64,000 bases of DNA. It comes from Streptomyces tardus (GTDB lineage: Bacteria > Actinomycetota > Actinomycetes > Streptomycetales > Streptomycetaceae). Within the stretch, counting starts at the first letter, position 1. Each line of letters begins with the position of its first letter. The position numbers and the translations under genes are program-made. The stretch lies in NCBI RefSeq assembly GCF_018101125.2, contig NZ_JAELVF020000001.1, positions 931,095 to 995,094 of the forward strand, in the 5' to 3' direction. Positions 1,690-20,297 of this stretch are shown here, one piece after another. Below the pieces are notes generated by a model. It made no database searches and was not told the DNA's origin. It worked only from the letters and a program-made list of their open reading frames with translations.

Positions 1690-1731
1690 GCAGCCGGGCG
1701 ATACCCTGATCGGACCGAGGAGGGAGTGGGC

Positions 1732-2979: not shown

Positions 2980-3701
2980 TGGCACGCCAGAGGGGGAAGG
3001 ACGACACGAGGCGTCGCCCCAAGGGCGCCGGGGGCAGGGCCCGTAATCGTGTGGTTCACATCTTCGCCGAGGGCGAGGTGACCGAAGAGCAGTACCTCGA
3101 TCTGGTGATGGCAGAGGGCACACCGAAGAACCCGGCGGAGACTGCGGTTCATCGAGTACGCACCAGCTCCGTCGCGACCAAAGACCGCAAACCGCTGCCC
3201 CTGGTGGACCTCGCGGTGGCCGCGCTGCGCAAGGCGGAGCGCGAGGCCGAACAGGGCGGGCTCACCAAGAAGCACTGGGCCTGGCCTCAGGTGTGGGTGC
3301 TCTTCGACCGGGATGATCACAAGCAGATCCCCACCGCGTTCAGCCGTGCGCGAGAAGCCGGCGTGCAGGTCGCCTACTCCCACCCGTGCTTCGAGCTCTG
3401 GCGACTGCTGCACTACAAGAACCGCACCGTCGGTTTCGGTGGCGGCAAATGCCACTCCGCCAGCTCCGCCCTCCGCTCCCAGCCCGGCTTCGCGAAGACG
3501 TACGGCCACAACGTCAGGTCGGTCTCGGAGGACCGCGCCAAGAAGGTCGTGCTGGACCAGATCAAGGGCGGCTACGCGGACGCGCGCAAGTTCGCCGCGA
3601 AGCTCAACGAGCAGCACACCGGCCCGGACCAGAGCCACTGGGATCCGTACACAAACGTGTACGAACTGATCGAGGACGGGCTCGGGCTGTCGGGTTACTA
3701 G
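2979..3701 (+). CDS. RloB-family protein, putative Toprim-like nuclease partner
   Basis: 240 aa. The N-terminus is very basic (RQRGKDDTRRRPKGAGGRAR), followed by the RloB motifs: IFAEGEVTEEQYLDL (Glu ~29), VWVLFDRDDHKQ (DxD near residue 110) and SHPCFELWRLLHY (~131-143). A conserved Glu in a glycine turn followed by DxD is the layout of Toprim metal sites, as in AriB/OLD nucleases, so a nuclease or tRNA-targeting effector role is plausible but not proven. Start codon overlaps the ATPase stop. With that gene it resembles AbiLi/AbiLii and, in logic, PARIS. Confidence 0.8.
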   Translation: MARQRGKDDTRRRPKGAGGRARNRVVHIFAEGEVTEEQYLDLVMAEGTPKNPAETAVHRVRTSSVATKDRKPLPLVDLAVAALRKAEREAEQGGLTKKHWAWPQVWVLFDRDDHKQIPTAFSRAREAGVQVAYSHPCFELWRLLHYKNRTVGFGGGKCHSASSALRSQPGFAKTYGHNVRSVSEDRAKKVVLDQIKGGYADARKFAAKLNEQHTGPDQSHWDPYTNVYELIEDGLGLSGY

Positions 3702-3813
3702 GGTGTTGGGCATGGCGGGCTCCTGCGGAGCGTAGGCTCTTGCGCGGCTTGCCACCCATGTGCTGGGGACGCGGGCCGCCCCCGAACGACAAGAGCACAG
3801 GGAGCCGTATCTC

Positions 3814-6423
3814 GTGGCCAAGCTCACGCTCGCCCAGCTGGAGCGCCATCTCTTCGCCGCGGCGGACATCCTGCGCGGCACGATGGACGCCGCCGAGTAC
3901 CGCGACTTCATCTTCGTACTGCTCTTCCTCAAGCGCGCCAACGACGAGTTCGACGCGGCCAGGGTGGCGATCGCCGCGGAACAGCGGCGCGACGACGAGT
4001 CCGAGGAGATCATCGCGCAGGAGCTGGAGCTCCCCAGGAACTACACCTCACGGGGCGTCCTGTTCGTTCCCGAGGACGCCAGGTGGGAGCGGCTGGCGAG
4101 TGCCAACGAGAACATCGCGACGGGCCGCCTCGACCCGGCCCTGAACGCCCTCACTCAGCAGAAGGGGAACGACCGTCTCGCCGGTCTCTTCTCCCACGTC
4201 AACTTCAACCGCATCGGTGGCGGCAGCGGAAGCGGCGCTTCCTCGGCGAAGCTCGCCGACCGCAGGCTGGAGGACCTGATCCGCCACTTCTCGCGGATCA
4301 ACCTGCGCGGCGAGAACTTCGAGTTCCCCGACATGATCGGCGCCGCCTACGAGTACATGATCAAACACTTCGCCGACTCGGCGGGCAGCAAGGGAGGTGA
4401 GTTCTACACCCCTCGTGCGGTGGTGCGCATGATGGTCGAACTCGCCCGCCCGCAGGAGAACTGGGGTGTGTACGACCCCTGCGTCGGCTCCGGCGGCATG
4501 CTGATCCACGCACGCGAGTACGTCGAGGAACAGGGCCAGAACGCGGCAAGCCTGGTCCTCGACGGGCAGGACGCCAACAGCGGCTCCAAGGTCATGGCCA
4601 CCATGAACATGCTCTTCCACGGCGCGAGCAAGTACAACCTCCAGGTCGGTGACACTCTCACCAACCCGCTCCACACACCCGGTGAGTACCACCTGGTGCT
4701 CAGCAACCCGCCGTTCTCGGCCGACTACACCCGCAGCGCGGTCCCGCACCGCCACGAGCGCATGAAGTACGGAGCGACGTCCGAACGCGGCAAGGCCGAC
4801 CTGATGTTCCTCCAGCACATGCTGCACATGGTCGGGCCGAAGAGCGGTTCGGTCTTCACCGTGATGCCGCACGGCGTGCTCTTCCGGGGCGGCGAGGAGC
4901 AGCGCATCCGCGCACAACTGGTGGAGAAGGACCTACTGGAGGCGGTCATCGGTCTCGCCCCCAACCTCTTCTACGGCACCGGCATCCCGGCCTGCGTACT
5001 GGTGTTGCGTGCCCCGGGCGGCAAGAAGCCCCGGCGGCACGGAGGTGTGCTGTTCATCAACGCCGACCGCGAGTTCCACGCGGAACGGGCTCAGAACATG
5101 CTGCTGCCCGAGCACGTCGAGAAGATCGTCTCCACCTTCCACGCCGGGAAGGACGTCGACGGCTTCGCCCGGTTCGTCACGCGCGAGGATCTGGCGGCCA
5201 ACGACCACAACCTCAATATCCGCCGTTATGTGGACAACACGCCCCCGCCCGAACCGCAGGATGTGCGGGCCCACTTGGTCGGCGGCGTACCGCACGCGGA
5301 GGTCGAGGCCCGCAAGGCGCTGCTGGACGCGTACGGGATCGGGCTCGACGCGCTGTTCACCGAACGCGAGGACGATCCCGACTATCTCGACTTCCCGCCC
5401 GAGGACTCGCGTCCCGACGCCGAGAAGCTGGCGGAGCTGGCGGCCCCGACGGAACAGCGACTCAAGGAAGCGTTCGAGAAGTGGTGGGGCGAGGAGTCCA
5501 AGGTCATCACCGCCCTCGCTCCGAGGAAGGACGACGACCGCACGGACAGCGAACGGCGCGCGCAACTCGTCCGTGCCCGCTCCGAGCTTCTCACCTCCTT
5601 CCGCGAACATCTCGACAGCGTCGGACTCCTGGACCGGTACGCGCTGGACGGCGCCATCGCCGGCTGGTGGCAGGAGGCCAAGTACGACCTGATGGCGCTC
5701 TCCACGCACGGTTTCACCGAAGTGGTGGACGGCTGGGTGGAGTTGGTCGAGACGATGCTGCTGCCGGAGCTCGACGCCCGCACCGGCAAGTCGAGCAAAC
5801 GCAGCGGGGCCGAGCGCCGCCAGGCGTATGGACAGAAGATCGTCGAGGCCATCGCTCCGGACTTCCTGCGAGAACTGGCGGAGGCGGACGCGAGGAAGGC
5901 CGAGGCGGACGCGAAGCTCAAAGCCGCGACCGCCGTACCGGAGGACTCGGAAGACGGGGACGGGGAAGCAGCCGAGGACGAGCGGACGTTGCCCACCGAG
6001 GACGAGCTCAAGGCGCTCAAGCGCGCCCGCACCAAGGCCGCCGCGGCCGTCAAGAAACTCGAAGACGACTTCTGGCCGTTGGATGGCAGGGCTCCCGAAG
6101 CAGACGATGTCAGCACTCCCGGCGCGGTCGGGGACGCACAGCAGGACACACTCGACGGCCCGCAGGTACCGGGCCTCACCCGCGCCCGCCGAGCCCTGTG
6201 GGACGACCCGGACGCGGAGCCGGCTGCCGTCCTCGGCATCCTCCACGACGACCTCGCGGCCAAGCTCGACGGTCATGTCGTCCGCAAACGGCGGGAATTG
6301 ACGCAGGCGTATCAGCGTTGGCTCGACAAGTACGAGGTCTCACTGCACTCGATCGAAACCCAGCGCGCGGAGGCCACCGCCCGCATGGAACATTTCCTGA
6401 AGGAGCTCGGCTATGCGGAGTGA
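3814..6423 (+). CDS. hsdM: type I restriction-modification DNA methyltransferase subunit M
   Basis: 869 aa. The N-terminal HsdM domain starts [17 protein letters not shown], and the N6-adenine methylase core has the SAM motif [10 protein letters not shown] (~residues 220-229) and catalytic NPPF (~296). GTG at 3814 is chosen because CAGGGAG lies 9 nt upstream; longer forms have no ribosome site. The protein is much longer than the ~500-aa enterobacterial HsdM: past residue ~480 there is a further ~390 aa, including charged Ala/Lys/Glu-rich helices (~690-760) that look like coiled coil. It overlaps hsdS by 11 bp. Methylates the target adenine chosen by HsdS. Confidence 0.95.
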
Positions 6424-7600
6424 GGCCGAACTCGTGCCGTTCTCCGTGGCGGCGGAAGTCAACCCACGAGACGTGCCGAATGGCAACCGAATCCCCTACG
6501 TGGCGATGCAGGATGTCTCCGAGGAGGGCCGGTTGCTACGGGTTGAGGAGCGCCCTCTAGCCGACGTGGCAACAAGCCAACCCACCTTCCGTGACGATGA
6601 CATCCTCTTTGCCAAGATCACGCCATGCATGGAGAACGGCAAAGGCGCGCTGGTTCATGGTCTCGGCCACTCAGTCGGGTACGGAAGCACCGAGTTTCAT
6701 GTGCTGCGCCCCACAGGGAAGGCGCTACCGGGGTTCATCCACTACTGGACGTGCCTCAGGCGCTTCCGCCGAGCAGCGGAAGCAACGATGACGGGATCCG
6801 GTGGCCAACGCCGGGTGCCGGCCGAGTTCTTTCGGGCCTTTCGCATTCCGCTGCCCAGCTTGCCGGAGCAGCACCGCATCGTCGAGATCCTCGACTCCGT
6901 CACCGAGACGGAGCGGGTACTCGCGCGCACCAAAGCTAAGCTCAGCATCATCACTTCTTCCGCGCGTAGTAGCTTGATCGAGGAACTCTCGAACAGCGAA
7001 GCGGTAAGGGTTAAGGACCTAGGAAATGTGCGGGGCGGCAAGCAGCTTTCACCTTCAGGCAAAGAAAATCCTGAGCAATACCCCTACCTGAGGGTCGCCA
7101 ACGTCCTGGCCGGAAGAATCAGCTTCTCCGATGTCAAGACGATGCATTTCACGAATTCAGAGAAAGACACATACCAGCTACAGCCTGGTGACATCCTCCT
7201 CAACGAGGGGCAAAGCTTGGAGCTGGTGGGGCGAAGCGCCATCTACAACGAACAGCCGGGAAAATTCTTCTTCCAAAACACTCTCATTCGTTTCCGGCCC
7301 GGCCCTCGCGTCAAGTCACGTTTCGCACAAGAGGTATTCACTCACTGGCTTGCATCAGGAAGATTCTCCGGAATCGCCAAACAGACGACCAGCATCGCAC
7401 ACTTGGGCAGCGAGCGATTCGCCTCGATGTCTTTTCCGGAGGCGACGATCGCGCGACAGGAGCAAGTGATCGCGATCCTCGATGCTCAGCTGCAGAGGAG
7501 CGCAAGCGTGGAGCGACAGCTCGCCAAGCTGCGACTTCTACGCGAGGGGTTGGCGGATGACCTGCTGAGCGGGCGCGTACCCGTGGGATCGGTCAGCTGA
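6413..7600 (+). CDS. hsdS: type I restriction-modification specificity subunit S
   Basis: 395 aa with two target recognition domains: the first ~1-140 ([25 protein letters not shown]), the second ~195-340 ([27 protein letters not shown]). Each is followed by a conserved helical spacer, [17 protein letters not shown] (~145-160) and [13 protein letters not shown] plus [16 protein letters not shown] at the end. ATG at 6413 has GAAGGAG just upstream and overlaps the hsdM stop. Base composition drops clearly below the neighbours, with more A/T at third positions, especially from ~6930 to 7400, as is usual for exchangeable recognition domains. Confidence 0.95.
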
Positions 7601-7621
7601 TCCCACGGAGCCGAACGTCCC

Positions 7622-8041
7622 TCACGTCAGGTCCAGTTCGACCCAGACCGTCTTGCCTACTTCCAGCGGAGTGACACCCCAGCGGGAGGCGAGGGCGTCG
7701 ACGATGACCATCCCCCGGCCGAACATCTCGTCGTCCGCTGCCTGACGACGTCGGGGCAATCGCTCGCCGCGCGGATCGGTGACCTCGGCGCGCACAACGA
7801 GCCGCGTCAGCTTCAGATGAACGCGGAAATGCCGCCGCGGAACACAGCCGTGCAGCACGGCGTTGCAGGCCAACTCCCCCACCACCAGCGCAAAGTCACC
7901 GGCGATCCCCGGGTGGCCCCACTCCGCGACCAGACGCGCCGCTCGACGCCGAACCAACTGCACACTTCCCGGCAACGGCGTGTAGTTCAGCCGGTCCTCC
8001 CGCAGCACGTCAGTACCCCGCCTCAACTCGGCGTGCCCCAT
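7622..8041 (-). CDS. HATPase anti-sigma-like ATP-binding protein (abaA/whiJ-type cluster)
   Basis: 139 aa, single HATPase_c_2 (RsbW-like) domain: N-box ELACNAVLHGC, then VTDPRGERLP and RGMVIVDALASRWGV for the G-boxes. No transmembrane or dimerisation domain. ATG at 8041 is preferred to one 10 codons upstream because GGGAGGGAG lies in front of it. It is divergent from the XRE gene across 174 bp. HATPase protein, XRE/DUF5753 regulator and DUF397 peptide form a recurrent actinobacterial trio (abaA and whiJ loci of S. coelicolor); a regulatory rather than defence function is inferred. Confidence 0.85.
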   Translation of the reverse strand: MGHAELRRGTDVLREDRLNYTPLPGSVQLVRRRAARLVAEWGHPGIAGDFALVVGELACNAVLHGCVPRRHFRVHLKLTRLVVRAEVTDPRGERLPRRRQAADDEMFGRGMVIVDALASRWGVTPLEVGKTVWVELDLT

Positions 8042-8180
8042 CTTTGCTCCCTCCCACGCGTGTTCGCGCACCTCGAACGCCCGAACACGATTCGTGACGA
8101 GCTCAACACCGAGAGTAGATTCAGAACTTCACGGGCACAACCTTCCCGGGGAATATCTTCTCCGAGTGCCTGGGCGACTC

Positions 8181-8220
8181 GACTCGTGAACCGCTTCAGT
8201 TGCACACTTCGACTCGTGAA
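8181..8220. promoter_or_regulatory. paired 10-bp direct repeats, candidate operator of the XRE gene
   Basis: GACTCGTGAA occurs at 8181-8190 and again at 8211-8220, exactly 30 bp (about three helical turns) apart, the second overlapping the proposed GTG start. A weaker inverted copy, TTCACGGG, is at 8129-8136. The position in the divergent intergenic region suggests autoregulation by the XRE protein; this is inference from layout only. Confidence 0.4.
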
Positions 8221-9094
8221 GCAGTCAGCAGACACAAGCAGTCGGGTCTCGACAGTCCTTGGGCGGAAGCTGGGTACCGAACTCCTGCACCTGCGGGACT
8301 CGGCAGGCAAGACGCAGCAGCAGGCAGCACAGACCCTGAGCGCCACATCAACCAAGGTCGTGAAGATAGAACGGGGCTGGGTGCCCGTACGTGACCCGGA
8401 TCTACGGGCGCTGTGCTCCTACTACGGCGTGACCGACGACGCGGTGCTCAGATCGCTGCTCGAACTCGCCAAGCTCGACCGCGAACGCCGACGGGCAAAA
8501 GGATGGTGGCAGCAACTCCCGGGAGCCGGCGCCCTGTCCGAGTACATCGCACTGGAGGATGCCGCCAGCCGGGTGCGCACATGGCAACTGGCCTTTGTAC
8601 CGGGCCTGCTCCAGACGGCCGAGTACGCCAGAGCGCTCGCGGTCGGGGAAGGGACGTGGGAGGACCCGGACGAGGTCGACCAGATGGTGGGCACCCGACT
8701 CAAACGCCAGGAACGCCTCCACGGGGATCGCCCACTGCACGTCTACGCAGTCGTCTGGGAGGCCGCACTGCGCCAACTCGTTGGAGGCCCGAGCGTGATG
8801 CGCGCCCAGCTCGACCAGGTCCGCGAGCTAACGGAGCTGCCCAACGTCCAGCTGCAAGTGCTGCCTTACCGTGCGGGCGCGCATGCTTGCGCCGCTTCCT
8901 CGTTCACCATCGTCTCCTTCGCCGAGGATGCGGCAGCCGATGTGACGCACGCGGATACGATCGGCACGACGGTCTGGGTGGAGAACCAGGAACTGAGCAC
9001 CACCTACCGCACGTTCTTCGAGCGCACTGCAAGGCAGGCTCTTGCACAGCGAGACTCGCTCACGCTCATCGATGAGATCCGCAAGGGGTTGTGA
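8216..9094 (+). CDS. XRE-family regulator with C-terminal DUF5753 (WhiJ-like)
   Basis: About 292 aa from GTG 8216. An N-terminal helix-turn-helix (LGTELLHLRDSAGKTQQQAA, SATSTKVVKIERG) is followed by the DUF5753 domain common to Streptomyces Scr1/WhiJ-like proteins (YIALEDAASRVRTWQLAFVPG, LLQTAEYARAL, VVWEAALRQLVGG, QLQVLPYRAGAH). No good ribosome site precedes the start, so translation may begin slightly elsewhere or be leaderless. It is followed 4 bp later by its usual partner, a DUF397 peptide. Confidence 0.9.
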   Translation: MKQSADTSSRVSTVLGRKLGTELLHLRDSAGKTQQQAAQTLSATSTKVVKIERGWVPVRDPDLRALCSYYGVTDDAVLRSLLELAKLDRERRRAKGWWQQLPGAGALSEYIALEDAASRVRTWQLAFVPGLLQTAEYARALAVGEGTWEDPDEVDQMVGTRLKRQERLHGDRPLHVYAVVWEAALRQLVGGPSVMRAQLDQVRELTELPNVQLQVLPYRAGAHACAASSFTIVSFAEDAAADVTHADTIGTTVWVENQELSTTYRTFFERTARQALAQRDSLTLIDEIRKGL

Positions 9095-9098
9095 ACTC

Positions 9099-9287
9099 AT
9101 GTCCCAGTTCAGATTCCGCAAGTCCGGCTACAGCAGCGGCAGCGGCGAGTGCGTCGAGGTCGCCGACAACGTTCCCGGGGCCGTCGCGGTGCGGGACTCC
9201 AAGACGCCGCGCCGCGCACACGTCCTGCACTCCCCCGCCGCCTGGGCCGCGTTCCTCACACACCTGCGCAAAGCTCACACCCTGTAG
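9099..9287 (+). CDS. DUF397 small protein, partner of the XRE regulator
   Basis: 62 aa: MSQFRFRKSGYSSGSGECVE, then VADNVPGAVAVRDSK and SPAAWAAFLTHLR. These are the standard DUF397 landmarks (KSSYS-like opening, VAVRDSK centre, WxxF near the end). ATG at 9099 lies 4 nt after the XRE stop with AAGGGG upstream. DUF397 proteins bind or modulate their cognate XRE protein in the whiJ/Scr families, and the pair has been discussed as toxin-antitoxin-like. Confidence 0.9.
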   Translation: MSQFRFRKSGYSSGSGECVEVADNVPGAVAVRDSKTPRRAHVLHSPAAWAAFLTHLRKAHTL

Positions 9288-9365
9288 ACCCCCACTCACA
9301 CCCGGCGCCGTCTTCGGCGCACAATGGGTGTGGGCACGCCAACGGGCAGGGGAGGGCAACCGGGG

Positions 9366-12300
9366 ATGGCACCGTACTCGGCGGAACTGGACGAGGCCGA
9401 AGCACCGCTGATCGCGCAGCTCACGGCGATGGGTTGGACCCATCTGCGCGGTTCGGAGCTGTCCGCGGAGGACCGTACGCCGGGTTCCCCGATTCTGGAG
9501 GGACGAGTGCGGCGTGCTCTGCGCCGCATCAACCGCAAGCCCGGCCAGGCCGACACCTGGCTCGACGAGGCGACGACGGACGCCGCCGTCCAAGAGGTGC
9601 GCAGGCTCACCAGCCACGCGAGCGGCGTCACGCTGGAGGACACCAACCGCACCGCCACCACGCTCCTCCTCAGCGGGACCCAACTGCCCGGCCCGGACGG
9701 AGAGTTGGAGCTCGTTCGGTTCGTGGACTGGACAGCGGACACGGATGCCCACGACTTCCTGGCGGTCAGCCAGTTCTCTGTCGCCGGCCCCGGTGGCCAT
9801 ACGGAGATCCCCGACCTCGTCCTCTTCGTCAACGGTCTGCCGTTGGCCGTCGTCGAATGCAAGAGCCCCGATGCGCCGGACCCGCTCGACCTCGCCATCA
9901 GCGATCTGCGCGCGTACAGCGGCAATCCCTTGGAGGACGACGAACGGACCGCACACGAACGACCGCGCGGCATCCCCGGCCTGTTCGCCTTCGCCCAGCT
10001 GCTGGTCGCCGCCAACGGTGAGGACGCCGTACTCGGCACGATCTCGGCGGACGAGGCGCACTACCACGCCTGGCGCAGCGTTCAGCCCGACTACGACAAG
10101 CCGGCGGCGCTCCAACGCGAGCTGCGCCGCGTCCCGGGACTGCTGGTCGCGGACCAGCAGCCGAACGGCCAACATGTCCTGACCGCCCTGGTGTTCAGGC
10201 CCGCCAATCTGCTCAACATCTTGCGGCACTACGTGATCGAGCTGCCGATCACCGACGACGACGGCGAGATCCTGCGACGCGTCAAGACCGTCTGCCGTCA
10301 CCAGCAGTACCGCGCCTCGGAGAAGATCGTCCGCAAGCTGGCGAACGGGCGCAACCCGACGAGTCCCGGCGTCACCGACGACGAGCGCGGCGGGGTCGTC
10401 TGGCACACCCAGGGCTCGGGCAAGAGCCTGACGATGGCCTGCCTGGCCAGGCGCCTGCACATGCACCGCGATCCGGAGCTGAACGGCTTCACCATTCTGG
10501 TGGTCACCGACCGCACGCAGTTGCAGGGCCAGTTGAACGGAGCACTGCAGCTCAGCGGCAGCGAGGTGGTCACGGCCGGCTCCCAGGCGGACGTGGAGAG
10601 CCTGCTGGAGCACGCGGGGAAGCCGGGCGGTCGGCGGGTGATCTTCGCGATGATCCAGAAGTACCTGGGGCGCGTCCCGGGGCTCGTGCTGGACAGCGCC
10701 GACCGCGAGGAGCGCGACCTGCGCGGCGACTTCGACCGTACGCGGAAGCGGATCGAAGCCGGAGAGGACCCGGAGCAGGCGGCGGAACCCGAAGCACCCG
10801 AGGAGGCCGTACGGCGGCGGGTCTTCCGGCGGTGCAGCGACTCGCACCGGGTGCTGGTCCTCGTGGACGAGGCCCACCGCTCCCACGCCTCGGTCCTCCA
10901 CGCCTGCCTGCGCGACGCCGTACCGAACGCCGCCCGGGTCGGGTTCACCGGCACCCCGATCATGCGGGGCAACCACCTCAAGCACACCAGCCGGATCTTC
11001 GGTACCGAGCCGGACGACCTCTTCCTCGACACCTACCGAATGGAAGAGGCCGAGACCGACGGCGTTGTCGTCCCCGTCCGCTACGAGGGCCGGACCGGCA
11101 AGGGCGAGGTGAGCGACGCCGACGCTCTGGACGGGAAGTTCGACAACCTGCTGCAGCCTCTCTCCGACGATCAGCAGCGGCTTCTGCGGCGGCGCTGGTC
11201 CCAGCCGACCGCACGGGACGTGGCGGAGTCCGCGCCGATGATCCGCGCCAAGGCGCGGGACATGCTGAACCACTACGTCACCGGTGCGCTCGACCGTGGT
11301 TTCAAGGCGCAGCTGGCAGCCGTCAGCCGCCGGGCCGCGGTGATGTACCGGCACGCGCTGCGCGACGCCCGCGCGGAACTGCTCGCCGAGATCGAGGACT
11401 TCGACCCCGAGCACCTCCGGGACAAGGACGTGTCGCAGTACACCGAGCGCGAGCTGCTGCATCTGCGCGCCTGGCAGTACCGGGCGGTACTGCGACGCAT
11501 CGACTTCGTCCCGGTCATCTCCGAGGGCAGGGACGGCAAGGACCGCGGCTGGCGCCAATGGACGGATCCGGCCCGGCAGGAAGAGCACATCAAGGACTTC
11601 CGCCAGCCGCTCCCACATCTCCCGCCCGACCTTCCGTGGGAAGCCGCGGCACCGGAAGCGGAGCCGAATCCGCCGCTGATGGGACAGGTGGGGCGGATGC
11701 CGTCCTTCAATCCGTGGGGTGAGGAGGAGGTGGCCGTCGAGACCGTCGGCAAGGCGTCGGAGGCTCAGCCGGTCGCCTTCCTGATCGTGAAGTCGATGCT
11801 GCTGACCGGCTTCGACGCGCCCATCGAGCAGGTGCTCTACCTGGACCGTCCGATCCGCGACGCCGAACTGCTCCAGGCCGTCGCCCGGGTCAACCGGCCG
11901 GCCCGGGAGAAGACACACGGGCGCGTGGTCGACTACTACGGCGTGCTCGACGACCTCACCGTCACTCTCGCCGCCTACCGGGGCGACCCCTCGGTGCAGC
12001 GCAGCGTTCGGGCTCTGGACGAAGATCTGCCTGCTCTCCGAGTCGGCGCACAAGCAGTCCGGAACTTCCTCGACCAGCAGGGCATCACCCAGCTCGCCGA
12101 CCGGGCCGGCCTCACCCGCGCGGTGCTCGCACTGAAAGAGGAGGAGACGCGGGCACGCTACGACGAGCTGCTGAGCGAGTTCCACCGTGGGCTCGATCGC
12201 GTGCTGCCGCACGAGGCCGCCCTCGCACACATCGCGGAAGCCAAGGCGTGGACGCTGCTGCAGAAGCGTGCGCGCAGGCTCTACCGGGATGCGCAGGGCG

Positions 12301-12989
12301 GCGTGTTCTCGCTGCGCCCGGTCGGACGAGCGGTGCGCTCCCTGATCGCCGACCATCTGCAGCACTCGGAGCTGTCCCAGCAGATCGTCCCCGTCTCGAT
12401 CACCGACCTCGGCTTCGACTCCGCCGTCGAATCGATCTCCAACGCCGAACTCGCGGCGGCCGAGCAGGTGCACGGTCTGCGCTACCACCTGGAGCAGCGA
12501 GAACGCCGCGAACGCCCGGAGCTCTACCGGGAGTTGTCCGAAGGTCTCGAAGAGGTGCTGCGCGAGTTCGATGGTCGCTGGGAGAGGATCAGCGAACAAG
12601 TGCAGCCGCTGATCGAGACGGCCAGGGCGCAGAACGCCGACGATCCGGAGTCGCACGGCCTCACCCGGACCGAGTACCTGCTGTACAAGCAGCTCTCCGG
12701 GAAGCTCACGCACGAGGAGAGCCCGTTCGGTCCGCTCCTCGCCGAGCAGGTCAGGTCCGTCGTCATCGCCGTGGAGAGCTCGATTGTGGCGGAGGTGTCG
12801 CTGCACTCCTACCGGGACGACGCGACGAGCCTTTCCAGACTGGAGGACGTGATCTGGAAAACGCTGCGGACCGCCCTCAGGAGCCAGGGCGCAAAGCGGG
12901 ACATCAGCGCAGAGGAGGACCTCAGCACGGCGCTGGCCGGTCATGTGCAGGGCCACCTCTCGCACTACAGACAGGCGGGAAACATGTGA
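9366..12989 (+). CDS. hsdR: type I restriction endonuclease subunit R
   Basis: 1207 aa. The N-terminal nuclease motif is EIPDLVLFVNG to AVVECKS (~residues 147-163, PD-ExK). The SF2 translocase follows: Walker A HTQGSGKSLTM (~345), VDEAHRSHA (~499), GFTGTPIM, and late motifs FDAPIEQVLYLDRP and QAVARVNRP. A long helical C-terminal region would contact the methylase core. ATG at 9366 is chosen for the GGGGAGGG 9 nt upstream. It is separated from hsdM-hsdS by 1.7 kb holding the regulatory trio. Cuts DNA lacking the cognate methylation after translocation. Confidence 0.95.
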   Translation: MAPYSAELDEAEAPLIAQLTAMGWTHLRGSELSAEDRTPGSPILEGRVRRALRRINRKPGQADTWLDEATTDAAVQEVRRLTSHASGVTLEDTNRTATTLLLSGTQLPGPDGELELVRFVDWTADTDAHDFLAVSQFSVAGPGGHTEIPDLVLFVNGLPLAVVECKSPDAPDPLDLAISDLRAYSGNPLEDDERTAHERPRGIPGLFAFAQLLVAANGEDAVLGTISADEAHYHAWRSVQPDYDKPAALQRELRRVPGLLVADQQPNGQHVLTALVFRPANLLNILRHYVIELPITDDDGEILRRVKTVCRHQQYRASEKIVRKLANGRNPTSPGVTDDERGGVVWHTQGSGKSLTMACLARRLHMHRDPELNGFTILVVTDRTQLQGQLNGALQLSGSEVVTAGSQADVESLLEHAGKPGGRRVIFAMIQKYLGRVPGLVLDSADREERDLRGDFDRTRKRIEAGEDPEQAAEPEAPEEAVRRRVFRRCSDSHRVLVLVDEAHRSHASVLHACLRDAVPNAARVGFTGTPIMRGNHLKHTSRIFGTEPDDLFLDTYRMEEAETDGVVVPVRYEGRTGKGEVSDADALDGKFDNLLQPLSDDQQRLLRRRWSQPTARDVAESAPMIRAKARDMLNHYVTGALDRGFKAQLAAVSRRAAVMYRHALRDARAELLAEIEDFDPEHLRDKDVSQYTERELLHLRAWQYRAVLRRIDFVPVISEGRDGKDRGWRQWTDPARQEEHIKDFRQPLPHLPPDLPWEAAAPEAEPNPPLMGQVGRMPSFNPWGEEEVAVETVGKASEAQPVAFLIVKSMLLTGFDAPIEQVLYLDRPIRDAELLQAVARVNRPAREKTHGRVVDYYGVLDDLTVTLAAYRGDPSVQRSVRALDEDLPALRVGAQAVRNFLDQQGITQLADRAGLTRAVLALKEEETRARYDELLSEFHRGLDRVLPHEAALAHIAEAKAWTLLQKRARRLYRDAQGGVFSLRPVGRAVRSLIADHLQHSELSQQIVPVSITDLGFDSAVESISNAELAAAEQVHGLRYHLEQRERRERPELYRELSEGLEEVLREFDGRWERISEQVQPLIETARAQNADDPESHGLTRTEYLLYKQLSGKLTHEESPFGPLLAEQVRSVVIAVESSIVAEVSLHSYRDDATSLSRLEDVIWKTLRTALRSQGAKRDISAEEDLSTALAGHVQGHLSHYRQAGNM

Positions 12990-13023
12990 AGGCACTGACA
13001 GTGCGGACGGCTACGGTGGCATC

Positions 13024-13797
13024 GTGGACCAGCGATCCGATCAGCTCACCGACGGCCAGAGAGCAGTGTTCGACGGCCGCGAGGCCACCGTCTCGGTGAC
13101 CCGAGAGCGCCGACGCCTGGGCCTGACGATCGAGCGGGACGGCAGGCTGGTGGTGCGCACTCCGCTAGGCGCCGGCTTCGACGCAGTGGACCGCTTCGTA
13201 CGGGAGAACCGACGCTGGATCGACGCGAAGCTGGAGCTGTGGCGACGGCACCGCCCGCTCAACTCCGCACCGAGACTGGCCGAGGGCGAGCTGTTTCGCT
13301 ATCTCGGCCGCGAGTACCGGCTGGCGCTGACGGAGGCGTCCGCTCCGCCGGCACCGGTACGCCTGGTCGCGGGGCAGTTCCTGCTCGACGCGCGCGTCGC
13401 CGAGGATCCCGTGCTGGCCCGCGCCCATCTGCGCCGTTGGTACCGGGAGGCGGGCGCCGACTGGTCGCGGGGGCGGCTCCAGCCGTGGGCGGGACGCATG
13501 GAGGTCGCCGAGCCCCGTCTCGTCGTGCGGGATGTGGGCAAGCGCTGGGGCACCTACCGGGCGGCGCCCGAGCCGGGCGGCAGCCCCGGTGTGATGGCGC
13601 TGCACTGGGGCCTCTTCCAGCTCCCGCCACGGCTGATCGACTACGTCATCGCGCACGAGCTCGCGCACATCAGAGTCTCCGGCCACGGCCCCGACTACTG
13701 GCGGCTGTTGCGTCGGGCCATTCCCGAATGCGAGTCGCTCAAGGCCGAGTTGGACGAGATGGGCCGCCACGTCTGGCTGGGCGACCTCGGCCGCTGA
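13024..13797 (+). CDS. YgjP-type (M48/WLM-like) zinc metallopeptidase
   Basis: 257 aa. The zinc site HELAHIRVSGHGPDYW (~residue 210) has HExxH with the third ligand a few residues on, as in the YgjP/DUF45 family, and the family signature KRWGTYRA lies earlier (~175). No signal peptide, so cytoplasmic. It starts 35 bp after hsdR at a GTG with GGTGG upstream. YgjP-like peptidases are often encoded beside hsdR; whether this one trims HsdR or a phage protein is unknown. Confidence 0.85.
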   Translation: MDQRSDQLTDGQRAVFDGREATVSVTRERRRLGLTIERDGRLVVRTPLGAGFDAVDRFVRENRRWIDAKLELWRRHRPLNSAPRLAEGELFRYLGREYRLALTEASAPPAPVRLVAGQFLLDARVAEDPVLARAHLRRWYREAGADWSRGRLQPWAGRMEVAEPRLVVRDVGKRWGTYRAAPEPGGSPGVMALHWGLFQLPPRLIDYVIAHELAHIRVSGHGPDYWRLLRRAIPECESLKAELDEMGRHVWLGDLGR

Positions 13798-13909
13798 GAA
13801 CGACGCCGTTCGGACCGCCTGCCCCGTACGTTCAACGGTCCGCTCCTGCACTGGCGTTGATACGATCGATCGCTGAGCGTGGGGAATCGGTTACAGGGGA
13901 GCGGGGCGC

Positions 13910-15976
13910 ATGAAGGATCTGCACATGAAGGACCTGTACATCAAGCAGGTGGAGAAACAGCTCCGCGAGCGGTTCGACGGGCTCATCGACATGAGCGACG
14001 AAGCGGCCAAGCGTTCCGATCCGGACAAGACCTGGCTCTCCCGAGCGCTCGCCGCGCTCGCAGTGGTGGACGCCACCGGCTGGGAGCCCGGCCGGGCGGC
14101 GAAGTGCGTCATCGACGGTTTCGACGACGAAGGCATCGACGCCATCGCGGTGGACACCGAATCGCCCCACATCTGGATCGTGCAGGCAAAATACAGCAGC
14201 AACGGAAACGCCGGTTTCGACCAGCAGTCGATGTTCGCGCTCAAGGCCGGCCTCGATCTTCTGGTGAAACGGGGCGAGTACCACAGGTTCAACAACAAGC
14301 TGCAGCCGCTGATCGAGGATCTTTCGAATGCGTTGGCCAACCCGGGGGTCCGGCTGACCGTCCTCCTCGCCCTGACCGGCGAGGAGCGCCTCTCACCCAA
14401 CGTCCGGCAGCGTTGCGCCGATCTCACCGGCGAGTACAACGAGATCAACCACGACTTCATGACCATCAAGACGATGCACCTCTCGGATTTCGTGCGAGCG
14501 GTGCGCTCCGACACCCGCATCGAACTCCAGGCCCGGATCGAAGATCTCAAGGTGCACAAGGAGCCCTACCCCGCGTACTACGGCACCATCACCGCCGACC
14601 AGGTCGCGGCATGGCACGCCGAGTACCGACACCGCCTCTTCAAGCGCAACATCCGCCACCCGCTGGGGCTCACGCCGGTCAACTCCGAAATCGTCGACTG
14701 CCTGGTCAACACCCCGGAACTTTTCTGGTACTTCCACAACGGCATCACGGTTCTCTGCGACACGGTGCCGATGATGGGACCGCTCGGAGACCTCCAGCTC
14801 AACGACGCAAGCGTGGTCAACGGAGCGCAGACCGTCGCCTCGATCCACGAAGCGCACACACGTGCTCCCGAGGCTCTGAAGAAGGCGGCGCTCGGCATCC
14901 GCATCATTCCGCTTCAGGGAACCCCGTCCGGGTTCGACAGCAGGGTCACCATCGCGACGAACACTCAGAACGGCGTCATCCAGCAGGACTTCCGAGCGCT
15001 GGACGATCTTCAGCGGCGTTTGGCCTACGACTTCCAGTACGGCCTGGACAAGGCCTATGTGCTCAAGCGCGGTGATAAGCCGCAAGACAGCCGAGAGGGC
15101 TGCGACATGGCGGAGGCGGCCATGGCGCTGGCCTGCGCTCACGCGGATTTCCGGATCTCCTACCGCGCCACCGCGGACAGCCGGCGACTCTGGGACAACG
15201 ACACCTATTTCGAGATCTTCAAGGTGGGGGACGCCCGGACGGTCTGGCGGTGCGTACAGCTCCATCGTGCAATCCAGCAGCATCTGCGGGACTCCCGCAC
15301 CGAACGAGAGGGCCGGGCCGAGCAACTCGCCGACCAGGGCGGGCACCTCGTCGCGCATCTGGTGTACCAGTCCCTGCCCGGGTGGCGGAAGGTAGACGAA
15401 GAGCAGTGGACAGAGGTCCTCGCATCGGTCGCCCAACTGACAGAGGAAGCATTCCGCCGGGCCATCCACACCGTTGACACCGTCATCGGCCAGGGAAGCC
15501 ACATCAGTTCTCTCTTCCGGTCCAGCGAGCGTTATGAGCGTGTCGCGCGCGCCGCTGCCGAGGCAACCCGTGCCGGCGAGACCGTTCCGGATCTGGCGCA
15601 GGGCTACCAGGCATCCGAAAGCGAGGGCAAGGCGCGCAAGGCCAACGCCGTCACGGTCATCGTGGAGGCGGAGGCGATCGAGGCGGGCACCGCGCTGGAG
15701 TTCCGGCCGGTGACGGGGCCCGAACGCTCGGCACTCGCCGCCTGGATCGCCGAGGATCCTCGGCGAGGTCGAGCGACCTGGGCCCGGAGCAAGAGCAAGC
15801 CATTGCTGTGGGAGCTGGACGGCATGCAGTACTCGCCCACCGCCCTGGTGATGAAGTTCTTCGAGGAAGCCAACAAGAAGGGGCCCAAGGCCGTGCAGGG
15901 AACGCGCCGATGGTTCGTTCCCACTCGTGGCTCGCTGGTCGAGATCGCGGACAAGGTGCGCACCGAGGCGGAGTAG
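13910..15976 (+). CDS. AIPR-family abortive infection protein
   Basis: 688 aa. Near the N-terminus FDDEGIDAIAVD (D77) and IWIVQAKYSS (Q92, K94) give a PD-(D/E)xK-like nuclease arrangement. The AIPR core is recognised by FHNGITVLCD (~276-285), NDASVVNGAQTVASIHEAH (~299-317) and RVTIATNTQN. ATG at 13910 follows GGGGAGCGGGG; a second ATG is 5 codons later. AIPR proteins occur in phage abortive-infection and restriction loci. It has its own leader (113 bp after the peptidase gene) so it may be a separate unit. Confidence 0.85.
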   Translation: MKDLHMKDLYIKQVEKQLRERFDGLIDMSDEAAKRSDPDKTWLSRALAALAVVDATGWEPGRAAKCVIDGFDDEGIDAIAVDTESPHIWIVQAKYSSNGNAGFDQQSMFALKAGLDLLVKRGEYHRFNNKLQPLIEDLSNALANPGVRLTVLLALTGEERLSPNVRQRCADLTGEYNEINHDFMTIKTMHLSDFVRAVRSDTRIELQARIEDLKVHKEPYPAYYGTITADQVAAWHAEYRHRLFKRNIRHPLGLTPVNSEIVDCLVNTPELFWYFHNGITVLCDTVPMMGPLGDLQLNDASVVNGAQTVASIHEAHTRAPEALKKAALGIRIIPLQGTPSGFDSRVTIATNTQNGVIQQDFRALDDLQRRLAYDFQYGLDKAYVLKRGDKPQDSREGCDMAEAAMALACAHADFRISYRATADSRRLWDNDTYFEIFKVGDARTVWRCVQLHRAIQQHLRDSRTEREGRAEQLADQGGHLVAHLVYQSLPGWRKVDEEQWTEVLASVAQLTEEAFRRAIHTVDTVIGQGSHISSLFRSSERYERVARAAAEATRAGETVPDLAQGYQASESEGKARKANAVTVIVEAEAIEAGTALEFRPVTGPERSALAAWIAEDPRRGRATWARSKSKPLLWELDGMQYSPTALVMKFFEEANKKGPKAVQGTRRWFVPTRGSLVEIADKVRTEAE

Positions 15977-16600: not shown

Positions 16601-16904
16601 CGAGTTGTCGAGCAGCGAAGCCCAACTCATGTGGCTCGATCGCCGGCTGGGCGGGCCGCGCGGTCCCCGTAGGCACACGCACACCCTGTTCTCCGGCCAA
16701 CAGGGCCTCCTCCGGGTCCGGTTCGCGCCGGCGCCGCATCGTTGGGCACCGACGCCACGCGGCCCTGCGGCGAGCGGCGAGCGGCGAGCTCACGCCGCCG
16801 GCGCCGGTGCGGCGGCTCACGGATGTGCTCGGCGCGCGGCTGGGGAGATCGCAACCCCGTGCCGACCGCCCGCAGGCGACGGCGGTCGCCCCGAAGCGTG
16901 ATGG

Positions 16905-16933
16905 ATGACACAATAAACCTGTATGCGTACTGT
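16905..16933 (+). promoter_or_regulatory. putative promoter of the four-gene GvpYZ/Asp23-type operon
   Basis: ATGACA (16905-16910), 17 bp, TACTGT (16928-16933) resembles a vegetative -35/-10 pair in a locally A/T-rich patch. The expected start of transcription is about 15-20 bp before the ATG at 16957. Confidence 0.45.
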
Positions 16934-16956
16934 CTACCTATTTGGGTGTGTCTGGA

Positions 16957-17967
16957 ATGAGCTACCCCGAACATTCGGTCGAAGGAGACCCCTTCGGTGA
17001 GGACGAGGAGGAGCCCACCGAAGGCCCCGGTGCAAACCGAACGGCGCTCCCGGCCCGGGTGGACGAGGACGTTCCGGCCGTGGACGCCCCCGACGTGCGG
17101 CTCGAGGTTCCGACGCTCCACGTCGACGAGATCAACCTCGAGGTCGAGGACCTCACCGCGCAGGTCGCCCTGAGCGCGGAAGTGCTCGACCTCCTCAAGC
17201 TCAACGTCGGAGCGGACGTACGCCTGGGCCGGGTTCAGTTGGACGTCAAGGGAGTCGAGGCCGAGGCGGAGCTGGAGGTACGGCTGCGGCACGTCGCTGC
17301 CATCGTCGGACGCGTGCTGACCACGATCGACCGGAACCCGCAGATCCTGGAGCATGTGACGCGCGGGGTGGAGACCGCCACGGCGGACCTGGGCAGCAGC
17401 GCGGGAACCGCGGTGGCCGAACTGGGTCACGGCGCCGGCGAGGCGGTGGAGTCGGTCGGTGAAGGCACCGGCGAGGCGGTCGAGGCCACCGGCGAGGGAG
17501 CCGGCCAGATCGCACGGAGCGCCGGAAAGGCTGTGCACACCACCGCCGACAGCACGAGCCGCGCCGTCGAGGACACGGCCGAAGGCGTCGTGGAAAGCGC
17601 GGACGACGCGGTCGACACCGCCGAGAACGAGCTGGACGACGACCCCGCGGGGCTGGACGACGACTCCACGGACGGGGACGAAGACCTCCCGGAAGCGGAA
17701 GAAACCGCAGAACGGGACGTCGAGGACGCCGGGCGACGCGGCGAGCGCCGCCAGCCGTCCCGCCCCACGGCCCGTACTCGCCGCGAACCGGGAACCAACA
17801 AGTCCCGCGCCGCCGGATCGGTGATCGACGCTGCCCCGGGCAAGCACCCCCGCCGGTCCGCGAGGGCAGCCACCGCACGCGAGGCCGAACGAAGCCCGGG
17901 GGTCGGTGGGCGGAAGTCGGCCGGTACGCACTCACCTCGCGCCACTCGCGGTCGCCCGCCGCAGTGA
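16957..17967 (+). CDS. acidic amphipathic-repeat protein of unknown function
   Basis: 336 aa, no recognised catalytic domain. Residues ~30-110 carry alternating beta-like stretches (VRLEVPTLHVDEINLEVEDL, LNVGADVRLGRVQLDV). About 120-215 is apolipoprotein-like, with 11-residue-type repeats such as GAGEAVESVGEGTGEAVEAT. The tail is acidic, then Arg/Pro-rich. No signal peptide. The ATG at 16957 has only a weak ribosome site; TTG 16942 is an alternative. First gene of the operon; a structural or membrane-surface role is suggested by composition only. Confidence 0.7.
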   Translation: MSYPEHSVEGDPFGEDEEEPTEGPGANRTALPARVDEDVPAVDAPDVRLEVPTLHVDEINLEVEDLTAQVALSAEVLDLLKLNVGADVRLGRVQLDVKGVEAEAELEVRLRHVAAIVGRVLTTIDRNPQILEHVTRGVETATADLGSSAGTAVAELGHGAGEAVESVGEGTGEAVEATGEGAGQIARSAGKAVHTTADSTSRAVEDTAEGVVESADDAVDTAENELDDDPAGLDDDSTDGDEDLPEAEETAERDVEDAGRRGERRQPSRPTARTRREPGTNKSRAAGSVIDAAPGKHPRRSARAATAREAERSPGVGGRKSAGTHSPRATRGRPPQ

Positions 17968-18097
17968 CCCCGTCGGCGGCGGTGCGACCGCAACCGCAGG
18001 ACCGGCCGCTCGCACACGTCGAGTCGTACCGACCGCGCCCTGAACCTCCGCCCGGGACGCGGGCGGAGACCCACTCGGGGACAAGGAAGGGTTTTCG

Positions 18098-18607
18098 ATG
18101 GAGACCGATCAGTACAGAACATCGCAGGCACGGAAGAACGGGGAGTCGGGCGCCGAGACCGTCGGCGGTCGGACGGCAATCGCCGATGTGGTCGTGGAGT
18201 CCATCGCCGGTATCGCCGCCCGTGAAGCGGACGGCGTGTACTCGATGGGCGGTGGCGTGTCCCGAGCGGTGGGAGCGGTGCGCAACCGATTGCAGTCGGG
18301 CGAGGACAGCGCTCGCGGCGTGGACGCCGAGGTCGGCGAGAAGCAGGCGGCCGTCGACATCTCACTCGTCGTCGAGTACGGCGCGATCATCACCGACACC
18401 GCACGCCAGATCAGGTCGAAGGTCTCGCGAACCGTCAAGGAGATGACGGGACTTGAGGTGGTCGAGATCAACATCTACGTGTTGGACGTACATGTCCCCG
18501 ACACCTCCGAGAAGTCCGAGGGCTCCGGGGGCTCGGAGAGTTCCGGCGGTTCCCGGCGCGATGACCGCTCGACAAGTACCGCCGGCGACCGTTCGCGCGT
18601 GCAGTGA
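18098..18607 (+). CDS. Asp23/Gls24 (DUF322) family protein
   Basis: 169 aa. The Asp23 domain spans ~20-130: TAIADVVVESIAGIAAREAD, VYSMGG, then DISLVVEYGAIITDTARQI and VVEINIYVLDVHVPD. The last ~35 residues are Ser/Gly/Asp-rich and disordered. RBS AAGGAAGGG precedes the ATG. Asp23 proteins sit under the membrane in Firmicutes and respond to envelope stress; in Streptomyces several paralogues exist. Here it lies between the repeat protein and two GvpY/GvpZ-like genes. Confidence 0.9.
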   Translation: METDQYRTSQARKNGESGAETVGGRTAIADVVVESIAGIAAREADGVYSMGGGVSRAVGAVRNRLQSGEDSARGVDAEVGEKQAAVDISLVVEYGAIITDTARQIRSKVSRTVKEMTGLEVVEINIYVLDVHVPDTSEKSEGSGGSESSGGSRRDDRSTSTAGDRSRVQ

Positions 18608-18715
18608 GGGAACGGCCCCGCACGGCGCGATGGCAGGCGCGGGAACCGAGCGGCGCCGACAAGAAGTCGGCGCACCGCTCCCCCGCCCCGACGGCTCTTC
18701 AGAGGTGGGATACCC

Positions 18716-19390
18716 ATGGATGACACGACGAAGATCGGTCTGGCCTCCGCGGTCGCGGGCGGCTACCTGCTCGGGCGTACGAAGAAGGGCCGACTCGCGC
18801 TGAGCCTGGCAATGATGCTGGCCGGACGCGAGGCGAGTGCCCAGCCCCGTCAGCTGGCGTCCCAGGCGGCCGAGTGGCTGGGCGGAGTACCGGAGGTCGC
18901 GCAGCTGCGGGACCAACTGCGGCAGGAGGGCACGGATGCCGCACGCAATGTGATGACCTCGCTGGCCGAGCGCGGCGCCGGTTCGCTCGCCGACGTGATC
19001 AGCAGCCGCACGGCCGTACCCGGCGACAAGCCGGGAGAGACAGCCACCGACAGCGACGATGACGCGTCGGGAAGCGAGCGGGACGACGACGGCGACGGCG
19101 ACCTGAGCGAGGAGAGCGACGAGGAACAGGAGGCCGACGGAGCGGACGAGGAGCCCGAGGAGGGAGCAGACGAGGAAGCCGAGGAGCCGGAGGAGGAACA
19201 GGGCGAACGGGAGCCCGAGCCCTCGGGTGGACGCCGTGGCGTGCCGCGTGCGGAGCGCAGCGAGCCGGCCCGGAAATCCGCTCCCGCCCGAGAGAGCAGC
19301 AGGACGGAGAAAACCGCCAAGTCGGCGCCCGCCGGGAAGACGGCAGCCAAGAAGACGGGCTCGGCGACCCGCAACAACCCCCGGAGGTAG
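18716..19390 (+). CDS. GvpY-like small protein with glycine-rich hydrophobic N-terminus
   Basis: 224 aa. It opens TKIGLASAVAGGYLLGRTKK, a short Gly-rich hydrophobic segment ending in a basic patch, then a helix LALSLAMMLAG and RQLASQAAEWLGG. Residues ~105-165 are almost only Glu/Asp/Gly/Ser, and the end is Lys/Ala-rich (AKSAPAGKTAAKK), resembling a histone-H1 tail. From memory this N-terminus matches proteins in Streptomyces gas vesicle clusters (gvpY, sometimes mislabelled DNA primase). RBS AGGTGGGA. Confidence 0.65.
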   Translation: MDDTTKIGLASAVAGGYLLGRTKKGRLALSLAMMLAGREASAQPRQLASQAAEWLGGVPEVAQLRDQLRQEGTDAARNVMTSLAERGAGSLADVISSRTAVPGDKPGETATDSDDDASGSERDDDGDGDLSEESDEEQEADGADEEPEEGADEEAEEPEEEQGEREPEPSGGRRGVPRAERSEPARKSAPARESSRTEKTAKSAPAGKTAAKKTGSATRNNPRR

Positions 19391-19394
19391 CGCC

Positions 19395-20297
19395 ATGGGA
19401 CAGCAGGCGTCGGACACTCGGCCCTCCGCGGTCGACCGACTGCGCGGTGTGGTGGCCGACTACGCGGCAGCGAAGATCGGCAGCGCCGCCGAGGGACTCG
19501 GCAAACGCGTCTCCCACACCACCCAGCGGCTGGGCGACCGCTTCAGCTCCGACGGCCCGGATTCCGGCGGACCGGATTCGGACAGCCCGGGGTCGGGTGG
19601 ATCCGGCTCGGACTCGGGCTCCGGAGGGGAAGCGGTGATGACACCGGGTGACCCCAAGGTGACGACGGTGATCGAGACCCTGGACGTGGGCGTACCGCTC
19701 AGGGCCGCATACGACCACTGGACTCAGTACGAGGAGTTCGGAAAGTTCGCCAAGGGCGTGCAGTCTGTCTCCAAGGACGACGACACGGTGAGCAAGTGGA
19801 ACACCAAGATCGCGGCGTCCTCGCGCAGCTTCGAGGCCACCGTTCAGGAGCAGATACCCGACGACCGGATCGTGTGGACGTCCCAGGGGCCGAAGGGCTC
19901 CACTCAGGGAGCGGTCAGCTTTCACGAGCTGGCACCCACGCTGACCAGGGTGGTGCTGGTCGTGGAGTACCGCCCGTCCGGCTTCTTCGAGAAGACCGGC
20001 AATCTGTGGCGCGCCCAGGGACGCCGCATCCGCTTGGACTTCAAGCACTTCCAGCGCTACGTGACCCTCGCCGAGGAGCAGCCGGAGGGCTGGCGCGGTG
20101 AGATACGCGACGGCGAGGTGGTCCGCACCGACGAGGAAGTGAGGGCGGACGAGGAGGATGACGCCGAAGAGCCGGATTCGGAAGGGGACGACGGCGAGCA
20201 CGACGACGAAGAAGACGACGGGTCCGACGAACAGGACGAGGACGACGGCGAGTTCGACGAGCACGACGACGACGCGGAGGACGACGACGAGCGCTGA
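19395..20297 (+). CDS. SRPBCC (START-like) domain protein, GvpZ-like, with polyacidic tail
   Basis: 300 aa from ATG 19395, which follows CCGGAGG and lies 4 bp after the previous stop. The SRPBCC domain spans ~90-220: VTTVIETLDVGVPLRAAYDH, WTQYEEFGKFAKGV, VEYRPSGFFEKTGNLW, RRIRLDFKHFQRYV. Residues ~240-300 are nearly all Asp/Glu. SRPBCC proteins bind hydrophobic ligands; one such gene (gvpZ) is part of Streptomyces gas vesicle clusters beside gvpY, which matches the order here. No GvpA, F, J, K, L, O or S is in the window. Confidence 0.75.
   Translation: MGQQASDTRPSAVDRLRGVVADYAAAKIGSAAEGLGKRVSHTTQRLGDRFSSDGPDSGGPDSDSPGSGGSGSDSGSGGEAVMTPGDPKVTTVIETLDVGVPLRAAYDHWTQYEEFGKFAKGVQSVSKDDDTVSKWNTKIAASSRSFEATVQEQIPDDRIVWTSQGPKGSTQGAVSFHELAPTLTRVVLVVEYRPSGFFEKTGNLWRAQGRRIRLDFKHFQRYVTLAEEQPEGWRGEIRDGEVVRTDEEVRADEEDDAEEPDSEGDDGEHDDEEDDGSDEQDEDDGEFDEHDDDAEDDDER

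Follow-up and report, generated by a model that had tools for sequence, protein, structure and literature searches.

A recurrent P1, Asp23, GvpY-like and GvpZ-like gene set in a Streptomyces genome without gas vesicle shell genes

What do the accessory proteins of gas vesicle (gvp) clusters do in a genome that has no gas vesicle shell gene? We investigate this question for a 64,000-nucleotide stretch of Streptomyces tardus (assembly GCF_018101125.2, contig NZ_JAELVF020000001.1, positions 931,095 to 995,094 of the forward strand), called the window in the following, in which four consecutive genes at positions 16957-20297 encode a protein with amphipathic repeats (P1), an Asp23-family protein, a GvpY-like protein and a GvpZ-like protein. 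The locus as well as its shell-free and recurrent nature are well supported. With a probability of about 0.4, we consider this module to be a functional stand-alone paralogue of the gvp accessory part (Asp23, GvpY, GvpZ) joined by P1, probably acting as a scaffold at the surface of a membrane or lipid body. For Streptomyces gvp clusters, gas vesicles have not been seen and another, unidentified function was suggested (PMC4982088, PMC5839063); our literature search found no function for Streptomyces GvpY or GvpZ. Where selection maintains the helpers in the absence of any shell gene, their role is separated from gas vesicles, and a shell-less genome carrying the module provides a clean genetic background for studying GvpY/GvpZ function.

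Shell genes and gene linkage across genomes

Neither the shell protein family GvpA/J/S (PF00741) nor GvpF/GvpL (PF06386) has a match in the host genome (6.16 Mb, completeness rating 100%). This absence is meaningful, since the same searches are positive across most of the genus, i.e., in 241/296 congeners for PF00741 and in 33/61 relatives for PF06386. It bears out the initial annotation, which had described the set as lacking shell genes, and a gvpA-type gene elsewhere in the genome was looked for and not found. Seeds of gvpG and gvpK, applied to positions 1-40000 of the window, gave no match there. The nearest locus-bearing relatives, Streptomyces sp. XM4193 and genome G586, whose GvpZ cores are identical to each other, show no PF00741 match either.

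We also surveyed the gene neighbourhoods of 296 genomes of the genus. A gvpA gene is present in 241 of them, a strong GvpZ homologue in 219 and P1 in 44. Among the 55 genomes without any gvpA-family match, 6 have both P1 and GvpZ, none has one of the two alone and 49 have neither (Fisher p=3.4e-8, not corrected for relatedness). Counting two genomes with marginal gvpA matches as negative changes the numbers to 7/0/0/50. One of these two, G169, is left out of the 6/0/49 count because it carries a gvp cluster in decay: at C11:217935-220228, split gvpF/L fragments lie near an intact gvpZ, and the genome as a whole has only a marginal gvpA-family match.

With regard to linkage, P1 and gvpZ are at most a few kilobases apart in all six gvpA-free genomes that have both. 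The respective value for gvpA-positive P1 genomes, in which a few P1 loci sit near contig ends, is 4/~37 (p=3.4e-5 vs. 6/6, again without correction for relatedness). The one-strand order P1-Asp23-Y-Z is found in the window and in G124, and likewise with a second Asp23 in G068; the other gvpA-free genomes show a convergent arrangement (G162), Y-Z-P1 (G061) or Z-P1 (G296). Divergent arrangements are seen in L044, L049, L057, L061 and L084. Overall, P1-gvpZ linkage comes in four arrangements. Two non-Streptomyces families share it (L247, L248); the genomes outside the family with linked P1, GvpY-like and GvpZ-like genes are G669, which is without gvpA, and G576, which has it. The set is linked in genomes with as well as without gvpA, but strict linkage of all four genes is not universal. 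Conserved linkage was found nonetheless, as was similarity to GvpY and GvpZ (see below). Wherever a sampled Streptomyces without shell genes has retained a GvpZ-type gene, the set is found again, so the helper proteins probably do a separate job.

Kinship and features of the four proteins

The last two proteins had been described as resembling GvpY and GvpZ, and homology to genuine Streptomyces gvp clusters was indeed observed. In S. coelicolor, the names refer to SCO6503/6504 and SCO0653/0654 (PMC5839063). The canonical operon of a congener (L123) reads gvpA, gvpF, gvpG, gvpY, gvpZ, more gvpA-type genes, gvpL and gvpK, an order repeated in dozens of named Streptomyces loci, and the window's GvpY-like and GvpZ-like proteins match the gvpY and gvpZ positions. 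GvpZ homologues inside genuine clusters adjoin gvpG, gvpY and gvpA/J. That is, the module shares homologous GvpY/GvpZ in the same order with the Streptomyces clusters (gvpO-A-F-G-Y-Z-J-L-S-K; S. coelicolor SCO6499-6508 and SCO0649-0655), many of which also have a related Asp23 alongside. In contrast to these clusters, the module's genome is without gvpA/J/S or gvpF/L, P1 is added and the GvpZ lineage is separate.

The GvpY-like protein has a GGYLLGRTKKGRLAL motif region and a short hydrophobic hairpin-like stretch at its N-terminus, followed by an acidic middle and a Lys/Ala/Arg-rich tail. Its N-terminal region matches GvpY of gvp clusters in phmmer searches; Pfam and NCBIfam hold no GvpY family model, and the protein gave only low-complexity matches there. 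The GvpY tail of the gvp cluster in L123 (5296-5997) resembles histone-H1-like and Rv3852-type basic tails, with weak matches below the cut-offs.

The GvpZ-like protein consists of an N-terminal amphipathic helix, an SRPBCC/START-type domain (about residues 85-227) and a polyacidic tail. The initial description as an SRPBCC protein with an acidic end holds, given a PF03364 score of 63.6 bits (cut-off 23.4, E=2.7e-17) and a net charge of -36 over the final 60 residues. Its core has a helix-grip fold. Among solved structures, the one closest to it by profile as well as by fold is the Deinococcus SRPBCC protein DR_A0006 (PDB 3ggn, the top fold match, and 2kcz), which has about 25% identity and no known gvp context. 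The closest named relative of the gene is that of XM4193.

The Asp23 assignment is confirmed by Pfam (PF03780, 98.8 bits at a gathering score of 28, E=3.1e-28). We computed a tree of 22 Asp23 proteins scored as gvp-adjacent, 8 from modules and 21 other paralogues including the host's own others. A single clade of 28 rows (support 99/90) unites 21/22 gvp-adjacent and 7/8 module proteins and contains 0/21 of the other paralogues; the remaining module protein, from G162, lies outside on a long branch. Given this tree and the GvpY/GvpZ homology, the closest kin of all module genes except P1 are found in gvp clusters. The 22 gvp-adjacent genes are mostly located directly 3' of gvpK, and roughly half of all gvp clusters with internal gvpY/gvpZ have a dedicated Asp23 gene immediately after gvpK (e.g., L048 12942, L089 12644, L116 12605). 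In the literature collection searched, no paper connecting Asp23 to Streptomyces gas vesicles was found.

P1 comprises a conserved domain of about 95 amino acids (residues 45-136), 11-residue amphipathic repeats (about 138-225), an acidic stretch and a basic tail. At lag 11, the repeat signal is pronounced (z=7.0), and the hydrophobic moment is highest at 98 degrees. The repeats form a long and regular array of weak hydrophobicity (Gly, Ala, Val, Glu). They are apolipoprotein-like, but the Pfam Apolipoprotein A1/A4/E model (PF01442) yields 17.3 bits, far under its gathering score of 90. P1 may act like an apolipoprotein despite this score. For P1 as well as for the GvpY-like protein, no curated family was matched. 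In a dozen loci, mostly with solo P1 genes, a small conserved open reading frame of about 60-98 codons directly follows P1 (L181:8875-9126, L171:8540-8791, L197:8819-9046 and nine more). It has no Pfam family, and its recurrence suggests a second, two-gene unit built on P1.

To judge selection and descent, we related the module genes to those of XM4193. The ratio of non-synonymous to synonymous substitution rates (dN/dS) is 0.48 for P1 (0.21 within its conserved domain), 0.30 for Asp23, 0.44 for the GvpY-like and 0.29 for the GvpZ-like gene, which indicates purifying selection. In the GvpZ tree, the P1-linked proteins cluster (3 label changes vs. a shuffled mean of 17.8) and, given midpoint rooting, are set apart from the bulk of GvpZ from gvp clusters. 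A single origin of the P1-linked GvpZ would be compatible with this placement; the midpoint root does not settle whether the module or the gvp-cluster form came first. Several genomes hold both the module and a separate gvp cluster.

Proposed function and competing explanations

From the repeat geometry and family knowledge, we infer with moderate strength a role as membrane or lipid-body coat. Here, the 11-residue repeats of P1 and the N-terminal helix of the GvpZ-like protein would bind the surface of a membrane or lipid body, and both proteins would recruit Asp23, which may polymerise there into a scaffold of filaments. Pairing between the polyacidic tail of the GvpZ-like protein and the basic ends of P1 and the GvpY-like protein could hold the coat together. 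The START-type domain may bind or shuttle a hydrophobic ligand. The repeat geometry of P1 (lag 11, 98 degrees) is that of perilipin and apolipoprotein helices (PMC5889406, PMC4807253). Perilipin 4 coats lipid droplets via a long repetitive amphipathic helix without bulky apolar residues (PMC5889406, PMC8064757). In S. aureus, Asp23 forms filaments that line the membrane and are attached through AmaP (PMC6954212). With this Staphylococcus system the module has a probable scaffold former of the Asp23 family in common, but it lacks AmaP, its Asp23 belongs to a clade specific to gvp-type loci and its partners are others. P1 likewise shares the 11-residue amphipathic helix geometry and basic tails with bacterial lipid-droplet proteins (MLDS/TadA) and eukaryotic perilipins; unlike these, it has its own conserved N-terminal domain, and no sequence membership was found.

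Several observations weigh against the proposed stand-alone scaffold. The six gvpA-free genomes with the module represent only about five lineages in the GvpZ tree. Asp23 adjoins the gvpYZ pair in roughly one of two P1 modules and is missing from the others. Most P1 genes of the genus stand alone (solo), which means that P1 may have its own separate job; we accordingly rejected the idea that P1 is strictly a module gene. AlphaFold applied to P1 (seven sequences) gave no usable fold (predicted local distance difference test score, pLDDT, of 41). Finally, a transmembrane segment of full length is absent from the GvpY-like protein, where hydropathy over 19 residues reaches 0.68 at best; its earlier description as a membrane-type protein was not quite accurate.

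The module might instead be a perilipin-like coat that covers and stabilises triacylglycerol bodies, with basic tails that tether them to nucleic acid. Rhodococcus MLDS, a protein with an apolipoprotein motif, bridges lipid droplets and DNA in this manner (PMC5504291), the composition and length of the P1 repeats are as in perilipin 4 (PMC5889406, PMC8064757), and the H1-like matches of the GvpY tail would fit nucleic acid tethering. Yet no lipid-body protein family scores above its curated cut-off, no lipid-synthesis genes were seen around P1 among neighbour clusters that were not exhaustively named, and the parallel to MLDS is drawn from its published properties. We consider this explanation rather unlikely. 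To a comparable degree we doubt an envelope-stress scaffold without any organelle, i.e., Asp23 filaments that line the cytoplasmic membrane with P1 or the GvpY-like protein as an AmaP-like anchor. The staphylococcal filaments would be the precedent (PMC6954212), and a salt response has been reported for gvp genes of Streptomyces (PMC5839063); on the other hand, the module contains no AmaP-type protein, the AmaP match of its Asp23 is weak and limited to the shared domain, and P1-gvpYZ loci without Asp23 are common. A more far-reaching idea, which we consider quite unlikely, is that GvpY, GvpZ and the dedicated Asp23 form with P1 an ancient, once independent actinobacterial surface-coating system that was later absorbed into gvp clusters and makes a shell-less compartment bounded by lipid or membrane. 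If true, it would explain the persistence of cryptic gvp clusters in soil Streptomyces without seen gas vesicles.

Descent offers two further explanations. The locus could descend from a gvp cluster that lost its shell genes, and could now be drifting without function. The gvp-cluster relatives of the three genes other than P1 fit such a remnant, as does the decaying cluster of G169. All four reading frames are intact, however, dN/dS ranges from 0.21 to 0.48 over the module, and P1, which is no gvp-cluster gene, is linked in 6/6 shell-less genomes. Together with the separate position of P1-linked GvpZ in the tree and the genomes that carry the module beside a gvp cluster, this makes a remnant very unlikely. 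Even less can be said for gas vesicles built from a shell protein too diverged for detection: the GvpY/GvpZ homology itself would suggest it, but neither PF00741 nor GvpF/L matches occur in the host or in five other module-bearing congeners, and both searches readily succeed in other genomes. We regard this as extremely improbable. The stand-alone scaffold is our preferred explanation.

Locus layout, non-coding elements and upstream neighbourhood

The features of the locus are listed in Table 1. All four genes were annotated correctly as consecutive reading frames on one strand, and each shows a codon bias of coding type (G+C content at third codon positions 0.83-0.87). The intergenic gaps are 130, 108 and 4 bp in gene order, i.e., the "tight spacing" noted initially applies to the GvpY-like/GvpZ-like pair but not to the other genes. 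Similarly, strong ribosome sites precede the Asp23, GvpY-like and GvpZ-like genes (AAGGAAGG, AGAGGTGGG and GGAGGT, respectively), while none is obvious for P1.

Table 1. Features of the module and its non-coding parts (window positions)
Feature	Position	Strand	Basis
Conserved non-coding block reaching the P1 ATG, presumed promoter region	16895..16959	+	near-identical in Streptomyces sp. XM4193
P1, 336 aa	16957..17967	+	open reading frame, repeats, domain homologues
9-bp GC stem-loop in the P1-Asp23 gap, without T tract	18046..18068	+	stem conserved in XM4193
Asp23-family protein, gvp-associated Asp23 clade	18098..18607	+	PF03780, tree
GvpY-like protein	18716..19390	+	phmmer match to gvpY of gvp clusters
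GvpZ-like protein	19395..20297	+	PF03364, fold match, relatives within gvp clusters

The block of about 65 bp 5' of P1 is nearly unchanged between the window and XM4193; adjacent non-coding DNA has diverged. A search for a sigma-70-type consensus 5' of P1 found none, and a SigB-type site seen there by eye (GGGTGT in the window) was dropped since it is not conserved in XM4193. The stem-loop might possibly be a partial terminator or RNA processing site; the evidence is weak because the folding energy of the whole P1-Asp23 gap is ordinary, i.e., no better than that of shuffled sequence (z -0.5 and -0.75).

The window contains a putative defence island (1726-15976), which is flanked by a response-regulator gene (994-1689) on one side and by P1 on the other. 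It includes reading frames that by eye resemble type I restriction-modification genes (3760-6423 and 9324-12989), a YgjP-like metallopeptidase (12943-13797) and an AIPR/AbiU protein (13910-15976). Given this neighbourhood, we checked the four module genes for a defence role, and none of them has a PADLOC match. In XM4193, the response regulator lies directly upstream of P1, so the defence island of the window looks inserted.

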